The translations under genes were made by a program, and so were the position numbers. Source: Micrococcales bacterium (GTDB lineage Bacteria; Actinomycetota; Actinomycetes; Actinomycetales; Microbacteriaceae). From it: a DNA stretch of 56,607 nt. The stretch spans positions 1 to 56,607 of the forward strand of contig CANLCU010000002.1 in the NCBI GenBank assembly GCA_947489135.1, written 5' to 3'. The notes under the pieces were generated by a model. That model was given only the letters and a program-made list of their open reading frames with translations. It was not told the DNA's origin and did not search any database. This document shows positions 14,374 through 33,295 of this stretch, one piece after another (the first letter of the stretch is position 1; each line of letters begins with the position of its first letter).

Positions 14374-15195
14374 ATGAGCAATCCATTAGATGATCCAAAG
14401 GCGGATCCTTTCCAAATAGCCCAACAAGCAGCCCAAGTTATAGCTGAGAAGTCGGGTATAGCCCAACACGATATAGCTCTTACCCTCGGTTCAGGCTGGG
14501 CAAAAGCTGCTGACCTTATTGGCGAGACTGTTTCAACCATTGATGCTTCTGAGATTCCTGGCTTCACAAGATCTGAAGTTGTTGGGCATGTCTCAACTAT
14601 TCGCTCAATCCTTTTGCCATCAGGTAAGCACGCTCTAGTTCTTGGAGCTAGAACTCACTACTACGAAGGTCACGGCGTTAGAAGAGTTGTTCATGGAGTT
14701 AGAACTGCAGCTGCTGCTGGAGTGAAGACGATGATCTTGACTAATGGTGCTGGTGGTATCAAGACTTCTTGGAAGCCTGGCACACCAGTACTCATCAGTG
14801 ACCACATTAACTTCACTTCAGCTAGCCCTATTGAAGGAGCTAACTTTGTTGACCTAACAGATCTCTATTCGCTTCGTCTAAGAGATATTGCTAGAACAGT
14901 TGATGCATCTTTAGATGAAGGTGTCTACATGCAGTTCCGTGGCCCTCACTATGAAACTCCTGCTGAAGTTCAAATGGCTAAAGCAATGGGAGCACACATC
15001 GTAGGTATGTCTACTGCTCTTGAAGCTATTGCCGCACGTCAATCAGGTCTAGAAGTTCTAGGACTATCACTTTCAACTAACTTGGCCGCTGGTATTAGCG
15101 ATAGCCCACTTAGCCACAAAGAAGTTCTAGAAGCAGGTAAAGAGGCAGAGCCTCGCATCAGTGCTCTCCTAGCTTCGATTGTTGCCAAGCTCTAA
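14374..15195 (+). CDS. purine-nucleoside phosphorylase
   Basis: LTLGSGWAKAADLIG, GARTHYYEGHGVRRVVHGVRTAAAAGVKTMILTNGAGGI, YMQFRGPHYETPAEVQMAKAMGAHIVGMSTALEAIAAR. Confidence 0.95.
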   Translation: MSNPLDDPKADPFQIAQQAAQVIAEKSGIAQHDIALTLGSGWAKAADLIGETVSTIDASEIPGFTRSEVVGHVSTIRSILLPSGKHALVLGARTHYYEGHGVRRVVHGVRTAAAAGVKTMILTNGAGGIKTSWKPGTPVLISDHINFTSASPIEGANFVDLTDLYSLRLRDIARTVDASLDEGVYMQFRGPHYETPAEVQMAKAMGAHIVGMSTALEAIAARQSGLEVLGLSLSTNLAAGISDSPLSHKEVLEAGKEAEPRISALLASIVAKL

Positions 15196-15197
15196 AC

Positions 15198-16823
15198 ATG
15201 TCTCTGCAAGAACTAAAGGAACAAGCACTAGCTTGGCTTAGCCAAGATCCTGATCCTGAAACAAGAGCTGAATTACAAGAACTCATCGACAACGCTGATG
15301 AAGCAGGGCTCACAAGTAGATTCCACACTCGTCTAGAGTTCGGTACCGCAGGTCTTCGAGGAGAACTTGGAGCTGGTCCTAACAGAATGAACAGAGTTCT
15401 AGTTGCTCAAACAGCAGCAGGACTAGGAAACTATTTACTCAAGCAAAACTCAAAGGCAAGTGTTGTCATTGGTTTTGATGGCAGAGTCAACAGTGATGTG
15501 TTTGCCAAAGACTCAGCTGAAGTTCTATCGGGCATGGGCATTGAAGTATTACTTCTAGATGAGATGGGGCCAACTCCTCTAGTTTCTTTTGCTACCAGGT
15601 TCTTGAACATGAGCGCTGGAATCATGGTTACCGCATCCCATAACCCTCCAAGAGATAACGGCTACAAGGTTTACCTTGGTGGAGATTTCAACGGTTCACA
15701 GATCATCTCTCCAGTTGATAACCAGATTGCCGATGAAATTAACAAGGTAGCTCGAACCCAAACTTTTGATTCCTTAGCTAAATCAACAGAATACAAATTG
15801 ATTGGTAAAGAGATTCGAGCAGAGTATCTAAAGAGTGCTCTTATCGCAGGTGGTAAATCTGATGGCACTGAGTTGAAGATTGTCTACACGCCTATGCACG
15901 GTGTTGGTTGGTCCGCTGTTGAACCGTTGTTTGCAGCATCTGGCTCTGAGGCTCTAATTCCAGTTCCTGAGCAAGTAAAACCAGATGGTAATTTCCCAAC
16001 TGTTGCCTTTCCTAACCCTGAGGAAAAAGGTGCCCTTGATTTAGCAATGGCTTTGGCTTTAAGCAAAGAAGCCGATCTGATAATTGCTAATGACCCAGAT
16101 GCTGACAGAGTTGCTCTTGCTCTGCCAACAAGTAATGGCTGGCAAAGACTAACTGGAGACCAGGTTGGTCTCATCCTTGCCGATGAGATTGCAAGCAAGG
16201 CTAAGAGTGGAACTCTTGCCTGCAGCATTGTTTCCAGCTCTGTTCTGGCTAAAGTTGCTGACCACTATGGTCTGGATTTCAAAGCAACCTTGACAGGGTT
16301 TAAGTGGATCTCGAAGATTCCTAATCTGATTTTCGGATATGAAGAAGCTCTTGGCTACTGCATTGACCCAGATCACGTTGCTGACAAAGACGGTGTTAGT
16401 GCAGCTCTACTACTTGCCAACATCGCTAGAAGAGAAAAGGCTGCTGGTAGAACTCTTTGGGATCTACTAGATGACCTTGGGGCACGCTATGGGTTCTATG
16501 CAACTGGACAGATATCTATCCGAGTCAGTGACCTAAGCATCATCGGTAAAGCTATGCAAAGTATCAGAACTACTCCCCCTAAAGAGCTTGCTGGACTAGC
16601 CGCCTCATTTACTGACATGAGTATTGGAAGCAAGGACCTTATGCCTACCGATGGTTTGAGATTTGATTTAGCCGATGGCAGAAGAGTGATCATTAGACCT
16701 AGCGGAACAGAGCCTAAGTTGAAGTGTTATCTAGAGGCTGTTTCAGATTCGAAGGCTGGAGCTAGAGAGCTTCTAGATTCTCTAGAGCAGAGCTGCAGAA
16801 AGCTTCTGGCGGATTTCAGTTAG
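15198..16823 (+). CDS. phosphomannomutase / phosphoglucomutase family protein
   Basis: LEFGTAGLRGELGAGPNRMN, MVTASHNPPRDNGYKVY, ANDPDADRVALA, IIRPSGTEPKLKCYLE. Confidence 0.95.
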   Translation: MSLQELKEQALAWLSQDPDPETRAELQELIDNADEAGLTSRFHTRLEFGTAGLRGELGAGPNRMNRVLVAQTAAGLGNYLLKQNSKASVVIGFDGRVNSDVFAKDSAEVLSGMGIEVLLLDEMGPTPLVSFATRFLNMSAGIMVTASHNPPRDNGYKVYLGGDFNGSQIISPVDNQIADEINKVARTQTFDSLAKSTEYKLIGKEIRAEYLKSALIAGGKSDGTELKIVYTPMHGVGWSAVEPLFAASGSEALIPVPEQVKPDGNFPTVAFPNPEEKGALDLAMALALSKEADLIIANDPDADRVALALPTSNGWQRLTGDQVGLILADEIASKAKSGTLACSIVSSSVLAKVADHYGLDFKATLTGFKWISKIPNLIFGYEEALGYCIDPDHVADKDGVSAALLLANIARREKAAGRTLWDLLDDLGARYGFYATGQISIRVSDLSIIGKAMQSIRTTPPKELAGLAASFTDMSIGSKDLMPTDGLRFDLADGRRVIIRPSGTEPKLKCYLEAVSDSKAGARELLDSLEQSCRKLLADFS

Positions 16824-17054
16824 ATCGAAGACGTGCTCAATTGAGACTATCTTCCCTGGCATTCCTTCAAGTAAGACAACTAGTTCAGGGGTTGTCAGAA
16901 TAATGTCTGCCCCTTCACCATCGCGTTTAGCTTTGGTGATATCTGCAGCAACTACTTCAGCTTGAATTCCCATTGCTTCAAGAACCTTCTCGGCATTCAT
17001 TTTTAGAAGCACTGACGTACCAATGCCCATCCCACAAACCGAAAGTATCTTCAC
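16782..17054 (-). CDS. PTS EIIB component (ascorbate/galactitol-type)
   Basis: ILSVCGMGIGTSVLLKMNAEK phosphocysteine loop; ~90 aa; adjacent EIIA. Confidence 0.88.
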   Translation of the reverse strand: MKILSVCGMGIGTSVLLKMNAEKVLEAMGIQAEVVAADITKAKRDGEGADIILTTPELVVLLEGMPGKIVSIEHVFDLTEIRQKLSAALL

Positions 17055-17063
17055 GTTCCCAGT

Positions 17064-17510
17064 TTAGATAAGGTAGGAACGAACTTGGCTCTCATTCGTA
17101 GCCTTGAGTAAGAAATTCACTGTATCTTCACTCATTAGCAATTCACTGAGTGCTGCCATTAGATCGATATGGCTATCGTGATCAACTGCTGCTAATCCAA
17201 TAACAAGTGAAACAGGGTCATTAGCTATGCTGCCAAATACAACAGGAGTTGAAAGTGTGACTAGAGATAAACCTGTTGCTAATACAGCTTCAGAGGGTCT
17301 GCCATGAGCTAGAGCAATACCAGGAGCGATAACCATGTATGGGCCAAGCTCTTCGAATGCTTGAATCATTTCGTTCGTGTATGCAGAGGTAGTTCTACTA
17401 CTTTCAACTAGACCTAAGCCAGCAAGTTCAAAGGTCTCTTTCCAGCTAACGCAACTTTGCTGTAGCTTTATTGAACCTTGACCTAAGGCTTGCTCCAAGA
17501 CCGAACTCAT
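17064..17510 (-). CDS. PTS EIIA component (Fru/Mtl/ascorbate-type)
   Basis: GPYMVIAPGIALAHGRPSEAV with phospho-His motif; adjacent EIIB. Confidence 0.88.
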   Translation of the reverse strand: MSSVLEQALGQGSIKLQQSCVSWKETFELAGLGLVESSRTTSAYTNEMIQAFEELGPYMVIAPGIALAHGRPSEAVLATGLSLVTLSTPVVFGSIANDPVSLVIGLAAVDHDSHIDLMAALSELLMSEDTVNFLLKATNESQVRSYLI

Positions 17511-17512
17511 TG

Positions 17513-18601
17513 TTACTGAGCAGCCTCAAATGCATCTGAGATGCGCTCAATAATCTCAGCTCTAACATCCATGTCCATAAACCCTGCGTTAGCAGCATTA
17601 AGCATGAACAACTCAATGTCATCCAGGTCATAACCAAATGTTTCAGTTAGAAGTTCTAGCTCGCGAGTAAGAGTGGTTCCACTCATTAAACGGTTATCTG
17701 TGTTCACAGTTACGTTGAAACCTAGACCATACAGAATGTCGAATGGGTGATCGCTCATCTGTGGCTGGTCAATATCAGGAAGTGCTCCCGTTTGTAGGTT
17801 TGATGAAGGGCTAAGTTCAAGAGCAATTCCTCGCTCCAGTACCCAAGCAGCAATATCTCCAAGAGCCTTCTGGTTCTCATCTTCAGCATCCACAAAGATG
17901 TCTTCAATGATGCGAACACCGTGACCTAGTCTCAAAGTTCTGCCATCAACTAGAGCATCCTTGATTGAGTCTCTACCATCACCTTCACCAGCGTGAAGGG
18001 TTACAGGCATCAACTGCTCGTTCAACCACTTGAATGCACTCGCGTGACGAGATGGGCTAAATCCTGCTTCAGGACCTGCATAGTCAAAACCAACAACACC
18101 GCGGTCTCTGTAGGCAACAGCAAGTTCAGCAATCTTCTGAGCATTGTCTGCTTGTCTCATAGCTGTTACCAGTTGACCAGTGACTAGGTAGCCACCGTTA
18201 GCAGCTACTTCTGCTCTACCCTGGCTTAGTCCTTCTTCGACATACTCAACAACTTCTTCAAGGGTTAGACCCTTTTCAAGGTGCTGCTCAGGTGCATAGC
18301 GAACTTCACCGTAGATAACTCCATCAGCAGCAAGATCTAGAGCGAACTCACGAGCAACTCTAATGAGTCCTTCTTTAGTCTGCATAACAGCACAGGTGTG
18401 TTCGAATGTCTCAAGGTATCTAGGTAATGATCCTGAATCACAAGAGTCCAGGAACCAGTCACGAAGATCTCTTGCATTATCTGCAGGAAGTTCGTGGCCA
18501 ATCTCTTTAGCCAAATCAATGATTGTTTGTGGGCGAAGACCACCATCTAGGTGATCGTGCAGTGAAACTTTTGGTAGAGCCTGGATATTTAGTTTAGACA
18601 T
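17513..18601 (-). CDS. add: adenosine deaminase
   Basis: LPKVSLHDHLDGGLRP, TLHAGEGDG, RLGHGVRI, LSPSSNLQTG, TVNTDNRLMSGTTLTRE. Confidence 0.95.
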   Translation of the reverse strand: MSKLNIQALPKVSLHDHLDGGLRPQTIIDLAKEIGHELPADNARDLRDWFLDSCDSGSLPRYLETFEHTCAVMQTKEGLIRVAREFALDLAADGVIYGEVRYAPEQHLEKGLTLEEVVEYVEEGLSQGRAEVAANGGYLVTGQLVTAMRQADNAQKIAELAVAYRDRGVVGFDYAGPEAGFSPSRHASAFKWLNEQLMPVTLHAGEGDGRDSIKDALVDGRTLRLGHGVRIIEDIFVDAEDENQKALGDIAAWVLERGIALELSPSSNLQTGALPDIDQPQMSDHPFDILYGLGFNVTVNTDNRLMSGTTLTRELELLTETFGYDLDDIELFMLNAANAGFMDMDVRAEIIERISDAFEAAQ

Positions 18602-18614
18602 TCTTCATTTCTCT

Positions 18615-19904
18615 TTATGCGTTGATACGGTCAAGGATAAGCGGTGTGAAACTAGTTGAGAGTTCACTCTCAATCTTGATTCCACCAGATAGAGCTTCAA
18701 CTGCTCTATCAAAACGTTCTGCTTCATCTGTGTAAAGGGTCATAAGCGGAGCACCCTTTTCAATCTTCTCTCCACGCTTAGCGTGAAGAATGATTCCTGC
18801 TCCGAACTGAACTGGATCTTCTTTGCGAGCACGACCTGCTCCTAAACGCCAAGAGGCAGTACCAACTGCAAGAGCATCTAGTTCGTTCACAAACCCTGAG
18901 CTTTCAGCCAAGATAGTTTGCTCATGCTTAGCAACCTGAAGTTTTGCTGTTGGGTCTCCGTGCTGTGCCTTAATCATTTCGTTCCACTTGTCCATGGCAC
19001 GACCATCATTCAAAGCAGCAGCAACATCAACATCGGTCTTACCTGAAAGACGTAGCATCTCTCTGGCTAGTTCAACAGTGATATCGATAAGGTCTTGAGA
19101 TCCGCCACCAGAAAGAACTTCAACTGCCTCATCCACCTCTAAGGCGTTACCGACTTTACGGCCCAATGGTGTGGACATGTCTGTAAGAAGTGCACTTGTC
19201 TTTACACCAGCATCTGCACCTAGTTGAGTAAGTACTTGAGCTAGTTCCTGAGCTCTTTCAAGTGTCTTCATGAAAGCACCTGAACCAACCTTTACATCAA
19301 GAACTAGAGCTGAGGTTCCTTCAGCAATCTTCTTACTCATGATGGAGCTAGCAATAAGTGGAATAGCTTCAACAGTTCCAGTTACATCTCTAAGTGCATA
19401 AAGCTTCTTATCAGCTGGAGCAAGACCTGCTCCAGCAGCACAAATAACAGCATTAACCTTTTCTAGCTGATCGTGCATCTGCTGATTAGTTATAGATGCC
19501 TGCCAGCCTGGAATAGCCTCTAGTTTGTCTAGGGTTCCACCGGTGTGACCAAGACCACGACCGCTTAGTTGAGGGACAGCAACACCGAAGACTGCTACCA
19601 ATGGAGCAAGCATCAAAGTGATCTTGTCGCCAACACCACCGGTCGAGTGCTTATCGGCAGTTGGAATAGTAAGGGAACTGAAATCTAGTCTTTCACCAGA
19701 GGCAATCATGGCGAGAGTGAGATCTCTGATCTCTCTTCTGTTCATGCCATTTAGCAAAATGGCCATAGCCATTGCAGACATCTGCTCGTCAGCCACAACA
19801 CCTGATGTGTAGTTAGCTACCAGCCAGTTGATCTGCTCGGTAGATAGCTCTTGTTTCTCTCGCTTAGCAACAATTAGTTCAACGGCGGAAAATTCTTTAG
19901 ACAA
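18615..19904 (-). CDS. deoA: thymidine (pyrimidine-nucleoside) phosphorylase
   Basis: DKHSTGGVGDKITLMLAPLVA, SGRGLGHTGGTLDKLE, DVKVGSGAFMKT. Confidence 0.97.
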   Translation of the reverse strand: MSKEFSAVELIVAKREKQELSTEQINWLVANYTSGVVADEQMSAMAMAILLNGMNRREIRDLTLAMIASGERLDFSSLTIPTADKHSTGGVGDKITLMLAPLVAVFGVAVPQLSGRGLGHTGGTLDKLEAIPGWQASITNQQMHDQLEKVNAVICAAGAGLAPADKKLYALRDVTGTVEAIPLIASSIMSKKIAEGTSALVLDVKVGSGAFMKTLERAQELAQVLTQLGADAGVKTSALLTDMSTPLGRKVGNALEVDEAVEVLSGGGSQDLIDITVELAREMLRLSGKTDVDVAAALNDGRAMDKWNEMIKAQHGDPTAKLQVAKHEQTILAESSGFVNELDALAVGTASWRLGAGRARKEDPVQFGAGIILHAKRGEKIEKGAPLMTLYTDEAERFDRAVEALSGGIKIESELSTSFTPLILDRINA

Positions 19905-19911
19905 TTAATTC

Positions 19912-20331
19912 CTAGTTTCTTTCATCAGCGCCGAAACCTTCGGCTAAATCACGAGGACCAAAAGCATCAGGGAGAACCTGATCGATTGTTTTGATACCTG
20001 AAACAGTCTGCAGAAGCATTCCCTCAGTTGAGTGTTCAAACAACAGCTGACGGCATCTACCGCAGGGCATCAGAATGTTCTCTGCTCCATCAACACAGTA
20101 GAAAGCAACAAGCTTTCCACCACCGGTCATACTCAGGTTGCTAACCAAACCACACTCAGCACATAGTCCAACACCGTAGCTAGCGTTTTCAATGTTGCAG
20201 CCTGAAACAATTCGACCATCATCAACAAGAGCTGCTGCTCCAACTGGGTAGTGGCTATAAGGAGCGTAAGCCTTCTTCATTGCAGCTATCGCTGCATCCT
20301 TCAACTCGTTCCAGTTGATCTCTTGGCTCAT
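19912..20331 (-). CDS. cdd: cytidine deaminase
   Basis: AYAPYSHYPVGAA, GCNIENASYGVGLCAE, MPCGRCRQLLFE. Confidence 0.97.
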   Translation of the reverse strand: MSQEINWNELKDAAIAAMKKAYAPYSHYPVGAAALVDDGRIVSGCNIENASYGVGLCAECGLVSNLSMTGGGKLVAFYCVDGAENILMPCGRCRQLLFEHSTEGMLLQTVSGIKTIDQVLPDAFGPRDLAEGFGADERN

Positions 20332-20333
20332 CT

Positions 20334-21614
20334 TTATCCCTTTACGTAAGGTTGACCGGATGCTGCCGGTGGTTTCACTCTTCCAGCAAAACCAGCAACT
20401 GCTAACAGGGTTACAAGGTAAGGAACCATAGTGATGAAGTCCACTGGAATACCAGGGGAAACCTGGTTAGCCCAGACCTTCAAGATGATTGTGAAACCAA
20501 AGAGCAATGCTCCAAGGGTCACATAGATTGGCTGCCAACGTCCAAGAATCACAACTGCCAAAGCGATGAATCCAAGACCTGCTGACATTTCACGTCCGAA
20601 GGAACCTACGTTTCCAATCGTCAGTGCTGCTCCACCTAGACCTGCTACAGCTCCACCGATAGTTACCCACCAGAATCTAGTTTTAGCGACATTGATACCT
20701 ACGGTGTCAGCAGCTAGCGGGTGCTCACCCACTGCTCGTGCTCTTAGACCCAGCTTGGTTCTGAACAATACATACCAAAGCAGTGGCACGAGAATAAACA
20801 TCAGATAGACAGTGATTCTGTTGTTGAACAGTACCTGTCCAAGAACTGGAATCTCTGAAAGCAATGGAATAGGTAGCTTCTCAAACGTGCCAGGGAAGTT
20901 TAGGTTGATGCTGTCATCATCTACCCATGCTGAATACAAGAAGTTAGTAACACCAATTACCAGAACGTTCAAAAGAACACCGATGATGATCTGCTCAACC
21001 AAGTACTTGATAGCAAGAGAGGCAAGGACTGTTGAGAGTAGGGCTGCAGCAATCATCGCCGCAATCAAACCAACATAAAGATTCTTAGTCATTGACCCAA
21101 CGATTGCTGAAACAAAAGCTCCAGTTAGAAGCTGACCTTCAATGGCAATGTTCACAACACCAACGCGTTCTGACATGATGCCCGCCATACCACCAAAGAT
21201 AAGCGGAATAGCTAGAACCAAAGTGTTACTCAAGATAAAGATCATCTGAACACCTTGGGTAGCTTCTGTTGCAAGCCAACCAAGAAGAGCCATCATGGCA
21301 CCAAGTGAGTAAATAGCAATTAGCCAAACTGGAGTTCTAGTACCACGAATGCTCAACGCAACAGAAAGTAAACCAATCATCAGTAGCACTGCACCAACAA
21401 TTGTGCAGAAGAACATCGAGTTCACAATAAATGGAGGAAGCTGCAGTGCTTCACGCTTATCGCTCCACACAAAGCTGATGTCTCCAGCTTTACCAAGGAA
21501 TCCAAAAAACACTAGAACAACTAGCGATGCAACAACCAGAGTGATTGGAGTTTTTAGACTCGGTCTCACAGTGGCAGAAGAGAACATGCCTGGGGTGACT
21601 TCTACATTTTTCAT
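20334..21614 (-). CDS. ABC transporter permease, predicted nucleoside uptake
   Basis: Multi-TM; AGIMSERVGVVNIAIEGQLLTGAF and LRARAVGEHPLAADTVGINV of the BMP/Nup-type permease family. Confidence 0.93.
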   Translation of the reverse strand: MKNVEVTPGMFSSATVRPSLKTPITLVVASLVVLVFFGFLGKAGDISFVWSDKREALQLPPFIVNSMFFCTIVGAVLLMIGLLSVALSIRGTRTPVWLIAIYSLGAMMALLGWLATEATQGVQMIFILSNTLVLAIPLIFGGMAGIMSERVGVVNIAIEGQLLTGAFVSAIVGSMTKNLYVGLIAAMIAAALLSTVLASLAIKYLVEQIIIGVLLNVLVIGVTNFLYSAWVDDDSINLNFPGTFEKLPIPLLSEIPVLGQVLFNNRITVYLMFILVPLLWYVLFRTKLGLRARAVGEHPLAADTVGINVAKTRFWWVTIGGAVAGLGGAALTIGNVGSFGREMSAGLGFIALAVVILGRWQPIYVTLGALLFGFTIILKVWANQVSPGIPVDFITMVPYLVTLLAVAGFAGRVKPPAASGQPYVKG

Positions 21615-22855
21615 TACTTGATCACCTTTTCTTCTTTAGCTTTCTGAGTTGCTTCAATAACCTTTATTCCTGGAGCTGGAAGTCGATAGAAGGCTCTAAT
21701 AATCGGTGGTGCTGCAATGAAGAGAACAATCAAAGCCTTCACAACACCTAGAACCTCAGGAGAGACACCAGCTACCTGCATGGTTGCAGATCCTGCTTTG
21801 AAAGCACCGAACAAGAGTCCAGCTAATACAACTCCACCGGCTCTTGAGCCACCTAGAAGAGCAACAGTAATTGCATCAAAACCAATACCCGCTTCAATGC
21901 TTGTGGTTAGACCACCATCAACGCTTAGGCCTTGGTTAGCAGCTGCTAAACCAGAGAAGCCAGCTGAAATTGCTAGTGCCCAAACGAAGGTGTTCTCTAC
22001 CTTGATACCAGCAGCTTTAGCAGCTGAAGGGTTGTGACCAACCATTCTGAATCTAAATCCGAATGTCGACTTCTCCATTAGCCACCAGTAGAAGATCACT
22101 GATAGGACAGCAAAGATCAATCCATAGTGCAACTGGAAGTCAGGGCCGAAGAGTAAACCAAGGCGAGCGGTGTCGTCAGGGTTATCTGACTTAGGTGTTC
22201 CACCGCCACCTTCTTCTAGAAGAAGGTTCGGCTCTCTGAGGAGATAGGTGAACAGAGACAAAGCTACGTAGTTCAACATGATGGTCACGATAACTTCGTG
22301 GGCACCTGTTCTAGCTTTTAGAACACCAACAATCATTCCCCAAACCATTGCACAAACTACAGCTGCAAATACAGCAACAAGCATGTGGATGATGATTGGC
22401 ATTTCTAGGCGAGTAGCAACAAATGTTGAACCAGCAAGACCAACAAGAATCTGTCCTGTTGCACCAATGTTGAATAGCCCAACTCTGAAAGTTAGAGCAA
22501 CACCCAAACCAGCCATGATTAGAGGAGCTGCAAAGCGAAGTGTTTCAGTGAATGGGCGAATAGCTGTTACAAAACTATCTGCACCGAAGTTGATGATGGA
22601 ACCCGTGAATAAAGCACCATAACCATCCTGGATAGTCCACCAAACAGTTGATAGAGCCATGCTTGGATCTGAACCAAAGTTAGCCCAGGCCTTCACAACG
22701 CTCTTATCGAAGACCACCATGAAGATTGCTCCGATGATGAATCCAAGAAGAACGGACAGAGCAATTCTTACTGGATCTCCAGCCATGATCTCGTGAAGAA
22801 CACTGGTGGCTTTATCTTGAGCAGGTTTTGCTGCTACTTCTTTTTTCTTACTCAT
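21614..22855 (-). CDS. ABC transporter permease, predicted nucleoside uptake
   Basis: RVGLFNIGATGQILVG, MVGHNPSAAKAAGI, multi-TM; overlaps neighbouring ORFs. Confidence 0.93.
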   Translation of the reverse strand: MSKKKEVAAKPAQDKATSVLHEIMAGDPVRIALSVLLGFIIGAIFMVVFDKSVVKAWANFGSDPSMALSTVWWTIQDGYGALFTGSIINFGADSFVTAIRPFTETLRFAAPLIMAGLGVALTFRVGLFNIGATGQILVGLAGSTFVATRLEMPIIIHMLVAVFAAVVCAMVWGMIVGVLKARTGAHEVIVTIMLNYVALSLFTYLLREPNLLLEEGGGGTPKSDNPDDTARLGLLFGPDFQLHYGLIFAVLSVIFYWWLMEKSTFGFRFRMVGHNPSAAKAAGIKVENTFVWALAISAGFSGLAAANQGLSVDGGLTTSIEAGIGFDAITVALLGGSRAGGVVLAGLLFGAFKAGSATMQVAGVSPEVLGVVKALIVLFIAAPPIIRAFYRLPAPGIKVIEATQKAKEEKVIK

Positions 22856-24351
22856 GCTGCAATACCTGCCATCATCTTTCCAAGTTTTTCTCTTGTGGTC
22901 TTAGCATCAACAATTCCAACTATTCGACCTCTATACATAACTGCAATGCGGTCAGCTAGAGCAAGAACTTCATCTAGCTCGGTTGAGATAATCACAACTG
23001 TCTTGCCCGCATCACGAGCAGCAACAATTTGCTCATGGATGAACTCAATTGATCCAACGTCAACACCACGTGTTGGTTGAGAAGCAATCAGCACTCTGAG
23101 GTCTCTGCTCATCTCTCTAGCAACAACAACCTTCTGCTGGTTTCCACCTGATAGTTGCTTGGCAAAAGTTCCAGCTGAAGGGGTTCTGATGTCGAATTCT
23201 TGAATCAACTTAGAGGCAATCTCATCACGCTTAGCAAAGTCGATCTGGACACCTTTAGCAAAAGGCTTTCCGAAAGAGCCGTCAAGCATTAGGTTCTCAG
23301 CAATTGTGAACTCCCCTACAAGACCGTCTTTCTTTCGGTCTTCAGGAATATAACCAACGCCAGCTTCAAGAACTTGTCTCACGTTGCTCTTGGTCAAATC
23401 TTTACCCGCAACTGTGATGCTGCCGCTGTGGATTTTTCGCAAACCTAAAATAGCCTCGGCTAATTCGGTCTGCCCATTTCCTTGAACTCCAGCGATAGCA
23501 AGAATTTCTCCGTCATTAACGGAGAAGCTAATTCCATCAACCATCTGTTGGTTACGGTCATCCAGAACAGTTAGATTCTTCACAACCAAAGTTTCAGCAC
23601 CAAGTTTTGCTGCTTTCTTCTTGGTGTCTAGATCAACTTCACGACCAACCATGAGAGAAGCAAGTTCTCCTGCAGTTGCCTTAGGGCTAGCTTCTGAAAC
23701 AACCTTGCCTTGACGAATAACAATGATTCGGTCAGCAACTTTCTGAACCTCACGGAGTTTGTGTGTAATGAAAATAATTGAAGTTCCGTTTTTACTCAAG
23801 CCTCGCATGATGTCCATGAGCTCATCAGTTTCCTGAGGAGTAAGAACAGCTGTTGGTTCATCAAGAACAAGAATCTTTGCATCTCTAGCTAGAGACTTAA
23901 TGATTTCAACTCTCTGCTGAGCTCCAACAGGAAGGTCCTGAACCCTTGCATCAGGATCAATATCAAATCCAAAACGATCTGAGATTTCCTTGACAAGTTT
24001 GCGGGCAGCTTCAAGATCTAGGTTTCCAACTTTTCCAGTTGGTTCATTTCCAAGAACAACGTTTTCTGCAACAGTGAAAACAGGAATAAGCATGAAGTGC
24101 TGGTGAACCATTCCGATACCAGAAGCCATTGCTTCGCCAGGACCTGAGAACTTAACTGCCTTGTCATCAAGCAGGATCTGACCCTCGTCAGGTTGCAACA
24201 GTCCATAAAGGACGTTCATAAGGGTTGACTTACCTGCACCGTTTTCTCCTAGCAGGCTAAGGATTTCCCCAGGAGCTAAGGTGAGGCTGATTTTGTCGTT
24301 AGCGACAAGGGTACCGAAGCGTTTGGTGATGTTTCTCAGTTCAAGCTTCAT
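22852..24351 (-). CDS. ABC transporter ATP-binding protein with two NBDs, predicted nucleoside uptake
   Basis: Walker A LLGENGAGKSTLMNVLYGLL; LSGGNQQKVVVAREMSRDLRVLIASQPTRGVDVG; duplicated NBD layout. Confidence 0.96.
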   Translation of the reverse strand: MKLELRNITKRFGTLVANDKISLTLAPGEILSLLGENGAGKSTLMNVLYGLLQPDEGQILLDDKAVKFSGPGEAMASGIGMVHQHFMLIPVFTVAENVVLGNEPTGKVGNLDLEAARKLVKEISDRFGFDIDPDARVQDLPVGAQQRVEIIKSLARDAKILVLDEPTAVLTPQETDELMDIMRGLSKNGTSIIFITHKLREVQKVADRIIVIRQGKVVSEASPKATAGELASLMVGREVDLDTKKKAAKLGAETLVVKNLTVLDDRNQQMVDGISFSVNDGEILAIAGVQGNGQTELAEAILGLRKIHSGSITVAGKDLTKSNVRQVLEAGVGYIPEDRKKDGLVGEFTIAENLMLDGSFGKPFAKGVQIDFAKRDEIASKLIQEFDIRTPSAGTFAKQLSGGNQQKVVVAREMSRDLRVLIASQPTRGVDVGSIEFIHEQIVAARDAGKTVVIISTELDEVLALADRIAVMYRGRIVGIVDAKTTREKLGKMMAGIAA

Positions 24352-24468: not shown

Positions 24469-25512
24469 TTAGCCAAGTGGGTTGATTGAACCATCGATAA
24501 TGCCAGCCTTTAGTTCAGCAAGCTTTGTCTTTAGTGCTTCATCTAGGAACTCAGTGTCCGAGATGTCAGTTCCCGCGTTAGCCAATGTACCGGTGTAAGC
24601 GTTGTCCATTCCACCAGCGAAAGCTTTCTTGTCAACTGCAAGTGCCTTCACGATGTCGTAAACTGCTGAACCCATTCTCTTCTCAATTGAGGTAAGAGTT
24701 AGAGGTGCATATTCTGGGCTTGTAACGCTGATGTTCTTGTCAACACCGATCATCTTTGCGTCAACACCTGACTCAGCAATCGCTTCTGAAAGAGCACCGA
24801 ACTGGTCTCCACCAACTGGAACTAGTACGTCTGCACCAGCAGCTAGGTGTCCAGCAGCAATTGTCTTGCCTTCTGGAGCGTTAGGAGCGAATCCACCAAT
24901 GAAGTCACCCTGCTGTGTAGTTGCATCCCAACCAAGAACAGTCACTGGTGTGCCTGTCTCAGCTTCGTATGCCTTTGCACCGTAGTAGAAACCATCCATG
25001 AATGCGGTAACTGCAGAAATCTGTACACCACCGTAAACGCTAACAACCTTTGATGTTGAGTAGTACGCAGCTGCATAACCAGCTAGGTATGATGACTCAG
25101 CCATGTTGTAACCAACTGGCTTTAGGTTTGTTGCTCCGTTTGACCAACCATCGATTGTTACGAAGTTAACTTCTGGGTTTGCTTCAGCTGCTGCGTTAAC
25201 TGCGTCAACTAGGTTGAAACCTACTGCGAAGATAACGTCACACTTAGCTGCAACCATTGCATCTAGGTTTGGAGCGAAGTCTTCTGAAGAGGTTGACTCA
25301 GCTGAGTTAAGTGTTACACCGAACTCTTCTGCAGCCTTCTCCATACCATCCATTACAGATTCGTTGAATGACTTGTCAGCCCATGAACCTTCGTCAGAAA
25401 CACCACATTCGATGAATCCTGCGCCTGGCTTTGCAGCACAGCCTGATAGAACTAGCAAGCTGGCTGCTGCCATTGCTACTCCTGCTATTGCCTTACGTGA
25501 AACTTTGTTCAC
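24469..25512 (-). CDS. BMP-family nucleoside-binding lipoprotein
   Basis: Lipobox LLVLSGC; KSFNESVMDGMEKAAEEFGV and VGFNLVDAVNAAAEANPEVNFVTIDG; start trimmed to GTG (VNKVSRKAIAG). Confidence 0.93.
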   Translation of the reverse strand: MNKVSRKAIAGVAMAAASLLVLSGCAAKPGAGFIECGVSDEGSWADKSFNESVMDGMEKAAEEFGVTLNSAESTSSEDFAPNLDAMVAAKCDVIFAVGFNLVDAVNAAAEANPEVNFVTIDGWSNGATNLKPVGYNMAESSYLAGYAAAYYSTSKVVSVYGGVQISAVTAFMDGFYYGAKAYEAETGTPVTVLGWDATTQQGDFIGGFAPNAPEGKTIAAGHLAAGADVLVPVGGDQFGALSEAIAESGVDAKMIGVDKNISVTSPEYAPLTLTSIEKRMGSAVYDIVKALAVDKKAFAGGMDNAYTGTLANAGTDISDTEFLDEALKTKLAELKAGIIDGSINPLG

Positions 25513-25633
25513 TTGTGTCCTCCTGATTTTTTGAGTCGGTGCCAATCACCAACCACACACATCTAGACACTACTAGCACCCAAGGACACATTTAGCCTCT
25601 AACACAAGGTATTTATCTAGGCGTTACAATTCC

Positions 25634-26638
25634 TTAATTGGATGGGGAAATCAGTGACTGCCTATAGGTTTCCAAAGACCCCAAAAGGGAGCCGTCAAGG
25701 GAATCTGGCTGGCTGATCCTAAGTTCTACGGTGTTGAACTTCAGTGCCCCAGGCTTTCTATATAGAGGGTCAGCTGCAAACTCACGATCCATTAGAGATG
25801 CCACGGCATTCAGGACGTATTTACTGGTATTTCTCTCAACTGAAACTTGAACTCTTGAGCCAAACGGTAGGTCGGTATCCCCTAGCTGCAGATCTGCTCC
25901 CATTAGATAAGGCCCATCCGTAGGCTCTGCTTCAACGCTCTGCCAGATACTCTTGCCTCCAAATATGGCTGCTACATCTGTGGCATCTAGGGTTGCCAGC
26001 TTGGTTGCGAGGGTACTCGAAGATGCAGTTCTAATAAAGATGGTCTCTGTTCTAGTTCCAGAGATCTCATCAAAGTCTTTTACCCCACTTATAAATGAGC
26101 TTTGAAGCTTCGTTGATTGAGAGTAAACCGGCTGTATAAAGAGGTGAACTCTTTCAGTCTTTGACTTACCAGCTGCAAAGAAGCCTGCTAGGCGAGCACC
26201 GCTCAATGAGTCATCGGCAACCCATCTAAAGTTGGCTGGTTGAACACTTGCTGAAATAGTGCTGCCAACAAACAGCACCATCATCTTCGAGTGTTCAGAA
26301 GCGAACTGGGCAAGATCATTGAGATAGCTTGGGTTAGCTGAAACCATAAGAACGCAACCGTTCTGCAGAGCTTCAAGCAATCTAGCCGGAACCTGCTCCG
26401 TGCTCTCATCTATCTTTACTTCACGAACACCAAGCCCATAAACAATTCTTGCTTCGACCAAATCTGCAGCCAGCTGCTTTTCTGGAGTACCAGGAACGAT
26501 AGTTGCTGAGCGGATCAAACAAGCAGAAGTCTTTGCTTTGACATCAGGCTTGACTACCTCTGCTGGTGCACATGCACTCACCCCAACGGTTAAGCCAAGA
26601 AGGATTGCTCCAGCAACTAGGTTTCTAAACTTCTTCAT
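25634..26638 (-). CDS. divergent BMP-like (periplasmic-binding fold) lipoprotein
   Basis: Signal peptide/lipobox LTVGVSAC; weak resemblance to BMP proteins (RWVADDSLSGARLAGFFAAGKSKTERVHLF). Confidence 0.6.
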   Translation of the reverse strand: MKKFRNLVAGAILLGLTVGVSACAPAEVVKPDVKAKTSACLIRSATIVPGTPEKQLAADLVEARIVYGLGVREVKIDESTEQVPARLLEALQNGCVLMVSANPSYLNDLAQFASEHSKMMVLFVGSTISASVQPANFRWVADDSLSGARLAGFFAAGKSKTERVHLFIQPVYSQSTKLQSSFISGVKDFDEISGTRTETIFIRTASSSTLATKLATLDATDVAAIFGGKSIWQSVEAEPTDGPYLMGADLQLGDTDLPFGSRVQVSVERNTSKYVLNAVASLMDREFAADPLYRKPGALKFNTVELRISQPDSLDGSLLGSLETYRQSLISPSN

Positions 26639-31278: not shown

Positions 31279-31761
31279 ATGACCGAATTCAACTCTTGCC
31301 CTGCCGACGGGGCACATAAAGAGGTGAATGATTCTATTTCTGGAGTTAGTCGCAGGTCTTTCCTAACCAAGATAGCTATTGCAGCAGGAACAATCGGTCT
31401 AAGCTCTATTGCCTCTTCAGCACTAGCTAGTCAAAAGAAATACAAGATTTGCTCAACCAAAGATATAAAGGTTGGCGGTGCTAGTTCATTTAGAGTGCCA
31501 GGAGCTAAGAACCTGATGGTTCTAATCACTCAACCAAAGCCAGGTGTCTTCAGAGCTTTTGATCAACGCTGCACCCACAACGGTCTCGCTATCAATTCAA
31601 TTAAGGGCAAGAACCTAGCTTGCCAAGCTCAGAGCAAAGGACATGGATCGCAATTTGATATGGAATCTGGTTCACCTAGAACTGGTCCTGCGAGAAAGTC
31701 ACTTCAACGTTATGAGGTTTCCGTTGAGAAGAACTTTATCTTCATAACTCTTAAAGCCTGA
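31279..31761 (+). CDS. secreted (Tat-type signal) Rieske-like protein with altered second ligand motif
   Basis: SRRSFLTKIAIAAG signal; FDQRCTHNG matches C-x-H, but the second box reads CQAQSKGHGSQFD instead of CPxHGSxF. Confidence 0.75.
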   Translation: MTEFNSCPADGAHKEVNDSISGVSRRSFLTKIAIAAGTIGLSSIASSALASQKKYKICSTKDIKVGGASSFRVPGAKNLMVLITQPKPGVFRAFDQRCTHNGLAINSIKGKNLACQAQSKGHGSQFDMESGSPRTGPARKSLQRYEVSVEKNFIFITLKA

Positions 31762-33295
31762 GTGCTCTAGCCAAGCTTGGAAGAAGAGCTGGAGATGCAG
31801 ATAAAGATGTCACTCCATATTCGATAAACAGTTTTGCTGAAACCAGATCACTGGCAGCCTCACCACAAATTCCAATTGGCTTTCCAGCTTTGACACAAGC
31901 TCTAGAAACTCTTTCAATCAGTTTCAAAACTTCCGGTGAACGTACCTCTGAGACAGGCAGAGGTGAATCCATTCGATCATGATTCAAGGTGTATTGAGTT
32001 AGATCATTTGTTCCGATACTTAGAAAATCAACAGCTTCTACTATTCGCTCAAGTACATCTGGTTCACAAACTTCAGGAACCTCGATCATCACGCCAACAG
32101 TTTCAAGACCTAATTGATTGGCCATGCTCACAAACTCAACTGCTTGCTCTGCTGTTGAAACCATAGGAGCCATTACCCAGAGCTTTGCACTTGGATACTT
32201 TTTTGAAGCAAGGCTAAGTGCTGTTAGTTGAGTGATCAGAGCTTCCGGGTTTGAAAGAAGTGCTTGGAATCCTCGGTTGGCATACTTACCCTTCTCAGTG
32301 AGCTTTAGGAAAGGTAGTGGCTTATCTGTGTCCAAATCTAGAACTCGAACAATAACTACCTGATCAGGGAACTGCTCAAGGAGCCTTGAGTATTCCAATA
32401 CTTGGGTATCCAGAGATGGTGCAGTTTTTTCTCCAAGGAAAAGTAGTTCTGTTCTAAATAGGCCTACCCCTTGAGCACCAAAAGCTAGAGCAGCATCTAC
32501 TTCAGAACTAGAGCCTAAGTTTGCATACAACTTCACTGGCAAATTCAGTTCTTCTATGGACAAACCAAGCTCAGGCTTGCTGTCTTGCGCAGCTTTTGAG
32601 TATTGGTCTAATTCCAGTTGATCTGGTCTGACCAGTACCTGCCCACTTGAAGAGTCAACGATTAGTTGCTCTCCAGATTGGATGAACTCAGTACCACTCA
32701 CAGACACAACCGTTGGCAGATTCATACCTCTAGCCAAGATAGAAGTGTGTGAGGTTGGACTACCCAAACTTGAAACAAGTCCGACTATTGAACTCTTATG
32801 AAGTTTCACCATTTCTAGCGGACCAAGATTGTCTGTAACTAGAACGAAAGGATCTGTTGGCCAGATCAAATCTTCTTTACCAGTGAGCTTGTCTATAACT
32901 CGCTCACCTAATTCAGTAATGTCATTTGATCGCTCAGCGAAGTATTCCCCAAGCTGAGCCAGAGCTTCGGCGGCTAATTTAAATGCACCCATGACGGCTC
33001 TTTGTGAATTGGCACCATCAGCTAATCGAACCTTGATGCTCTCCATCAAAGACTGATCTTCTAGTACTAGTTTCAAAGCATCAAGAATGTCCGCTGACTC
33101 ATCGTCGGTTTCTGCTCTAGCCTCTTCAATTTCTTTAGCAACATCAGCTAGTGCTGCTCTAATTGCCAATAACCCTCTAGTTGAGCCTTTGGCTTCACTG
33201 TCCCATGGGACATATCGTTCTGATCTATAGATGAACGCTGGAGCTATGGACACACCTGTGCCAACACCGGCACCAACTAATACGCGTTCACTCAC
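31751..33295 (-). CDS. ptsI: PTS Enzyme I (phosphoenolpyruvate-protein phosphotransferase)
   Basis: GSPTSHTSILARGMNLPTVVSV phospho-His region, GVGLFRTELLFL, DFLSIGTNDLTQYTLNHDR, GICGEAASD. Confidence 0.96.
   Translation of the reverse strand: MSERVLVGAGVGTGVSIAPAFIYRSERYVPWDSEAKGSTRGLLAIRAALADVAKEIEEARAETDDESADILDALKLVLEDQSLMESIKVRLADGANSQRAVMGAFKLAAEALAQLGEYFAERSNDITELGERVIDKLTGKEDLIWPTDPFVLVTDNLGPLEMVKLHKSSIVGLVSSLGSPTSHTSILARGMNLPTVVSVSGTEFIQSGEQLIVDSSSGQVLVRPDQLELDQYSKAAQDSKPELGLSIEELNLPVKLYANLGSSSEVDAALAFGAQGVGLFRTELLFLGEKTAPSLDTQVLEYSRLLEQFPDQVVIVRVLDLDTDKPLPFLKLTEKGKYANRGFQALLSNPEALITQLTALSLASKKYPSAKLWVMAPMVSTAEQAVEFVSMANQLGLETVGVMIEVPEVCEPDVLERIVEAVDFLSIGTNDLTQYTLNHDRMDSPLPVSEVRSPEVLKLIERVSRACVKAGKPIGICGEAASDLVSAKLFIEYGVTSLSASPALLPSLARALRL

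Follow-up and report, generated by a model that had tools for sequence, protein, structure and literature searches.

A permease-less EIIA-EIIB pair beside the adenosine deaminase gene of freshwater actinobacteria: a candidate regulatory descendant of an ascorbate-class phosphotransferase system

What use does a bacterium make of the soluble EIIA and EIIB proteins of a sugar phosphotransferase system (PTS) when no membrane permease, EIIC, is encoded beside them? The question is raised by a stretch of 56,607 nucleotides (here, the window) from a Micrococcales bacterium (assembly GCA_947489135.1, contig CANLCU010000002.1, positions 1 to 56,607), in which the genes for an EIIA (17064-17510, minus strand; 148 amino acids) and an EIIB (16782-17054, minus strand; GTG start, 90 amino acids) follow directly upon add, the adenosine deaminase gene (17513-18601, minus strand; NCBIfam NF006847, 516 bits against a cut-off of 412). 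A first-pass annotation had placed the pair at the end of a same-strand operon comprising a BMP-type ABC transporter, cdd, deoA and add, with gaps of 2-13 bp, and both the coordinates and the Pfam matches agree with that placement; the interval that it gave for the pair, 16782-18601, holds EIIA and EIIB but takes in add as well. We compared the assembly that contains the window (G000; 79% complete, 84 contigs) with 35 relatives from its genus, which we take to be that of the freshwater bacterium Rhodoluna. The function of the pair is very probably not transport and is most likely signalling. The explanation that we favour, with a probability of about one half, is that a former transporter PTS has lost its permease and become a regulatory pair connected with nucleoside use, with adenosine deaminase (Add) as its likeliest partner.

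Neither an EIIC-GAT (PF03611) nor a PTS_EIIC domain (PF02378, of glucose/fructose/mannitol type) was found in the window or elsewhere in the 79% of the genome that G000 represents, in a search of these two families; the EIIC/EIID families PF03609, PF03613 and PF13303 lay outside it. The first-pass observation that the window holds no EIIC thus stands, and for EIIC-GAT it extends to the whole genus. A permease gene co-occurring elsewhere with the pair, which that annotation held to speak against a regulatory role, was looked for, and EIIC-GAT was found in none of the 36 genomes, the closed genomes G006 (a single contig of 1,430,433 bp) and G017 included; the same search was positive in the control genomes of E. 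coli, C. glutamicum and L. lactis. PF02378 was not found in 25 of the 36, and at the loci of this family that were read (G006, G013, G014, G017 and G031) an EIIA and an EIIB of its own adjoin the permease gene. With no EIIC-GAT in the genus, the earlier suggestion that the pair energises a distant EIIC is unlikely. More broadly, the pair might still power transport through a divergent or unrecognised permease, or through one of the known families outside the search. EI, HPr, EIIA and EIIB are all there with intact acceptor motifs, as a transporter would need, but we consider this reading quite improbable in view of the counts just given, of the separate partners of PF02378, of the drift in EIIB positions that are fixed in EIIC-linked proteins (see below), and of the lack of any conserved membrane-protein neighbour save the ABC permeases, which are themselves not beside the pair in several genomes. 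Judged by sequence, the pair is not an ascorbate/galactitol-class transporter, since its EIIC-GAT component is missing.

Gene order inside and outside the genus indicates how this state arose. Within the genus, 46 loci (some representing one genome present in two collections) have the order add-EIIA-EIIB, none with an EIIC gene beside it, and in essentially every locus long enough for judgement a convergent phosphohexomutase gene comes next. Six loci (L045, L051, L054, L055, L056 and L060) keep EIIA-EIIB next to add without having cdd, deoA or the ABC genes there. Outside the genus, in Cryobacterium, Microbacterium, Arthrobacter, Agrococcus, Frigoribacterium, Bifidobacterium, Gardnerella, Actinomyces and some Chloroflexi metagenome-assembled genomes (MAGs), EIIA-EIIB adjoins a UlaA-type EIIC-GAT gene, and never add, in 58 of 58 comparable complete loci; these include two loci with fused EIIA-EIIB from a whole-genome search, and two more loci were cut by contig ends. 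A mixed arrangement occurred in 0 loci. The scan of named genomes gave 79 loci, with the best 80 kept and one peptide pattern required, so rare exceptions elsewhere are possible. The neighbouring EIIC belonged to the NCBIfam ascorbate EIIC equivalog in both outside examples tested. Conservation of the add-EIIA-EIIB order across the Microbacteriaceae, a point raised in the first-pass annotation, therefore holds throughout the genus but not in Cryobacterium, Microbacterium, Agrococcus, Frigoribacterium or Salinibacterium, which keep EIIA-EIIB-EIIC apart from add. In an EIIA+EIIB tree the genus sequences are monophyletic (support 1.0), and their clade sits within the EIIC-linked sequences; the EIIC was therefore lost rather than yet to be gained, and on this tree its loss is the derived state.

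At L053:9582-10241 a gene lies between EIIB and the phosphohexomutase gene. It is pyridoxamine-phosphate-oxidase-like and was rejected as an EIIC. Genes of similar size sit at the same place in L049, L118, L122 and L134, and in G003 (L163) a pyridoxamine-phosphate-oxidase-like gene comes after add.

The two proteins retain the features of their class. EIIA matches Pfam PTS_EIIA_2 (mannitol/ascorbate class; E = 9e-29) and EIIB matches PTS_IIB (E = 8e-14), and the pair carries the phospho-His and the CGxGxGTS phospho-Cys loop of ascorbate/galactitol-class EIIA and EIIB domains, with NCBIfam scores far under the ascorbate equivalog cut-offs. AlphaFold models reach mean confidence scores (pLDDT) of 95 for EIIA and 93 for EIIB. 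The best fold match of the EIIB model in the PDB is 3czc (PtxB of S. mutans; TM-score 0.85), followed by other EIIB domains, and the best sequence matches there are 3oxp, 2oq3 and 3bjv for EIIA and again 3czc for EIIB. The phospho-acceptors are Cys7 of EIIB, which opens the motif CGMGIGTS (residues 7-14), and His69 of EIIA, within PGIALAHGRP. The first-pass annotation had judged both motifs intact, and 36 distinct genus sequences show no variation at these two residues, at His114 or at the Cys-loop glycines, with EIIA identity as low as 41%; Cys7 is also invariant in 49 EIIC-linked sequences from outside the genus. Pairwise ratios of nonsynonymous to synonymous substitution (dN/dS; Nei-Gojobori), which are approximate since synonymous sites are often near saturation, are about 0.01-0.07 for EIIB, within the range of the neighbouring enzymes, and 0.02-0.15 for EIIA, close to that of the phosphohexomutase. 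Both reading frames are open across a genus of streamlined assemblies (0.9-1.6 Mb). By these ratios the pair is under purifying selection. It could be imagined instead as the vestige of a lost transporter, a chance survivor at the tail of a useful operon, and its secondary loss from G031, G034 and G003 (the last with a possible 16-residue EIIB tail after add) would suit that idea. Already disfavoured, it is very improbable beside dN/dS values far below 1, catalytic residues that hold despite the divergence of EIIA, and frames that stay open in such small genomes.

What has changed lies elsewhere in EIIB. In the 49 EIIC-linked sequences of wider origin, conservation is at least 92% at positions 38 (D), 44 (G), 46 (A), 74 (N) and 75 (F); within the genus these sites vary or carry other residues, and T has taken the place of S at position 55. 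In the model, position 38 is at the start of helix 2, 44 and 46 are within that helix, 55 follows strand 3, and 74-75 follow strand 4; the strand ends holding 38, 55 and 74-75 are, in such a fold, on the Cys-loop side. Drift at positions 38, 44, 46, 74 and 75 would be expected if contact with EIIC had been lost, and the model suggests that part of a docking face formerly shaped for EIIC may have been released from constraint, with the catalytic loop still fixed.

A chain that could phosphorylate the pair is present in most of the genus. The window itself encodes an Enzyme I (EI; 31751-33295, minus strand; 514 amino acids, by Pfam match), which the first-pass annotation overlooked. Its phospho-His segment, GSPTSHTSILAR, is intact, with S at residue 2 instead of the usual G or A; the second EI signature reads DFLSIGTNDLTQ, and Pfam detects no additional domain. 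The search for HPr that the annotation proposed located this protein outside the window, at G000:C4:288-554, with the motif GLHARPAA. EI and HPr are likely to be the phosphate source for EIIA. The EI gene overlaps the 3' end of the adjoining sdh/Rieske genes by 11 bp. Genomes with a fructose-PTS cluster carry, in place of this short EI, another EI type of about 545 amino acids inside that cluster; no genome was seen to have more than one intact EI.

Across the 36 genomes, add, EIIA-EIIB, EI and HPr occur without an EIIC of PF03611 or PF02378 in 15, G000 among them, and together with a fructose-type EIIC in 9. EI and HPr are both present in 24 of the 27 pair-carrying genomes; G035 has a partial EI at a contig edge and HPr was not found there, and in G028 and G030, which have add and the pair, neither EI nor HPr nor EIIC was found. 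The pair was never seen without add. The pair is missing from G003 and G031, in which add occurs with the fructose PTS; G034 and G021 have add (at a contig edge in G021) and none of the pair, EI, HPr or EIIC, and both add and the pair are absent in 5 of the 36. In G011, G024 and G025 that absence is weak, as the EI contig ends before or inside the neighbouring operon; these three are uninformative as genomes with EI/HPr and without add and the pair, and the co-occurrence test across the genomes is accordingly unreliable.

EIIA-Man/DhaM, searched for as a further HPr client, was found nowhere in the genus. The add-linked EIIA is therefore the sole EII acceptor for HPr, among the classes searched, in the 15 EIIC-less genomes. 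These same genomes bear on the notion that, in species with a fructose PTS, the pair tunes the general PTS, buffering or drawing off HPr phosphate and thereby modulating the uptake of fructose, and that its position after add has no significance. Nine genomes do combine the pair with a fructose-type EIIC, in a cluster that, where read, runs EI-HPr-EIIA-EIIB-EIIC and so has components of its own. That the pair coexists with EI and HPr in 15 genomes lacking the fructose EIIC, and that the add linkage is unbroken in all loci long enough, makes such tuning very improbable.

We favour, instead, a regulatory pair that descends from an importer. A complete ascorbate-class PTS transporter would have lost its EIIC in the ancestor of the genus, as the pair joined add at its 3' end. 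Phosphate would then pass, in most species, from phosphoenolpyruvate (PEP) to EI, HPr, His69 of EIIA and Cys7 of EIIB, with no sugar to accept it. Since no sugar would drain EIIB, the balance of phosphorylated and unphosphorylated EIIA and EIIB could report the PEP/pyruvate state, and hence energy supply. The output would probably be a protein contact with a member of the nucleoside pathway, and Add is the first candidate since it is the only constant upstream neighbour of the pair. Phosphotransfer, a regulatory role and Add as target are what we infer from these residues, genomes and gene orders. The first-pass proposal of a sensor or regulator of nucleoside use may hold: the relay parts and residues are intact in most genomes, although G028 and G030 keep the pair with no EI or HPr found.

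Several observations weigh against this explanation. Adjacency to add may simply be operon inheritance. G003, G031 and G034 retain add and the nucleoside operon and have lost the pair, so nucleoside use or catabolism is possible without it in some species. In G031 and G034, add and the phosphohexomutase gene almost touch, with no EIIA or EIIB between them. In G003, add is directly followed by 16 residues that match the C-terminus of EIIB (L163:8607-8654; 62% identity, E = 0.08), possibly a remnant or deletion scar left by recent loss of EIIA and most of EIIB. The strongest objection comes from two genomes that the tree places as sisters, G028 (10 contigs, 96% complete) and G030. They keep an intact pair that remains constrained (dN/dS between them 0.04 for EIIB and 0.09 for EIIA), yet neither family nor protein searches detected EI or HPr in them. 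In G028 a GTP-dependent PEP carboxykinase (L170:11607-13409) occupies the syntenic site of the window's EI. The Ldh-family gene that flanks the fructose-PTS cluster was considered as a marker of a clean deletion in the two genomes; it too is gone, and the junction is not demonstrable.

These sisters give substance to a different reading, in which the pair has no need of the PTS phosphorelay and instead binds Add or serves it as a scaffold (EIIA-EIIB together, or EIIB with its phosphatase-like Cys loop), or uses another phosphate donor. Constraint persisting where no donor is detected, and the loss of both EI and the Ldh-family flank, would be natural on such terms. We nevertheless think it unlikely, if worth keeping in view: His69 and Cys7 are invariant in all sequences, which points to phosphotransfer, the great majority of pair-bearing genomes have both EI and HPr, and the loss in G028 and G030 may be too young for visible decay, or hidden in assembly gaps. 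Either the donor was lost recently in these two, or the assemblies missed it, or the pair's use there is independent of EI and HPr. A fuller proposal joins this last option to the favoured explanation: EIIC loss turned an importer into a phosphorelay whose last member is a free EIIB, lacking a permease altogether, and in these freshwater actinobacteria with streamlined genomes the relay makes adenosine deamination respond to PEP/pyruvate status, the pair of one sublineage working on without EI or HPr. In that complete form it is tentative, and we regard it as possible rather than probable.

The rest of the locus is devoted to nucleosides. On the minus strand the operon runs from a Bmp/PnrA-type substrate-binding lipoprotein (24469-25545) through a two-domain ABC ATPase (22852-24351) and two BPD_transp_2 permeases (21614-22855 and 20334-21614), all identified by Pfam, to cdd (cytidine deaminase, 19912-20331) and deoA/pdp (pyrimidine-nucleoside/thymidine phosphorylase, 18615-19904), both by profile match, and then add, EIIA and EIIB. 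The gaps are 13 bp between deoA and add, 2 bp between add and EIIA, and 9 bp between EIIA and EIIB. Convergent to EIIB on the plus strand is the conserved phosphohexomutase-family gene (phosphopento-/phosphoglucomutase type; 15198-16823), whose 3' end overlaps that of EIIB by 42 bp, and a gene of the purine nucleoside phosphorylase family (14374-15195, plus strand) rounds off the catabolic cluster. A promoter scan returned fewer sites than shuffled sequences did. Upstream of the Bmp gene, a lipoprotein without a Pfam match (25634-26638, minus strand) probably represents a degenerate paralogue of the Bmp protein; a gene like it is kept beside add in some genomes without ABC genes there (L045, with weak BMP matches in L051, L055 and L060). 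Contigs C36 and C61 of G000 carry the same Ldh/Mdh-family match at identical coordinates (221-1150) and are probably redundant contigs of the MAG.

One genus thus displays the step from transporter to non-transporter, with EIIC-linked relatives on one side and an EIIC-less clade with frozen EIIA-EIIB active sites on the other, and it also contains lineages in which EI-HPr-EIIA-EIIB is the only PTS detected, one in which EI and HPr were not detected, and others without the pair. In the literature we found no description of an add-linked EIIA/EIIB. The published description of R. lacicola MWH-Ta8 mentions the fructose PTS and no other (PMC4156110). With this species, the role of a transporter-less PTS becomes testable in a cultured organism.

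Among known systems, the L-ascorbate PTS Enzyme II (UlaABC/SgaTBA; PtxA-PtxB of Streptococcus mutans) has the same EIIA/EIIB class and active-site motifs; PtxB (3czc) is the best EIIB match by both sequence and fold, and RmpA (3bjv) is among the best EIIA matches. The ascorbate system differs in its defining EIIC subunit, absent here from genome and genus, and the operon here serves nucleoside catabolism. The closest homologues are the actinobacterial EIIA-EIIB-EIIC(GAT) operons of Cryobacterium, Arthrobacter, Bifidobacterium and others (44-59% EIIA identity), the source clade in the tree; in all of these EIIC directly adjoins the pair, and add is beside none. Regulators with PRD domains that are controlled by EIIB, such as MtlR with EIIB-Mtl in Bacillus, illustrate how the phosphorylation state of an EIIB can act by protein contact. 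No PRD regulator is near the present pair, a comparison that covers its neighbourhood.

PTS-Ntr proper (PtsP-PtsO-PtsN) was rejected as the identity of the chain, EIIA scoring 29 bits against a PtsN cut-off of 221 and EI lacking the extra (GAF) domain. Permease-less PTS chains are known chiefly from Proteobacteria and spirochaetes, and the described cases end at EIIA. For that of Brucella melitensis, phosphate transfer has been shown and a purely regulatory role proposed (PMC2937029). Like the PTS-Ntr and permease-less systems of B. melitensis and Treponema denticola, the Rhodoluna chain is soluble and runs through EI, HPr and EIIA with no PTS permease: EI and HPr without an EIIC acceptor of PF03611 or PF02378 occur in G000 and 14 other genomes, G028 and G030 standing apart in their lack of detected EI and HPr. 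In contrast to the Brucella and Treponema chains, it continues to a free EIIB, its EII proteins are of a different class, its EIIA and EIIB genes sit beside add, and it has an actinobacterial origin by EIIC loss. The permease-less PTS as such is known; what is new here is a variant with a free EIIB linked to add, derived in Actinobacteria from a transporter that lost its EIIC.

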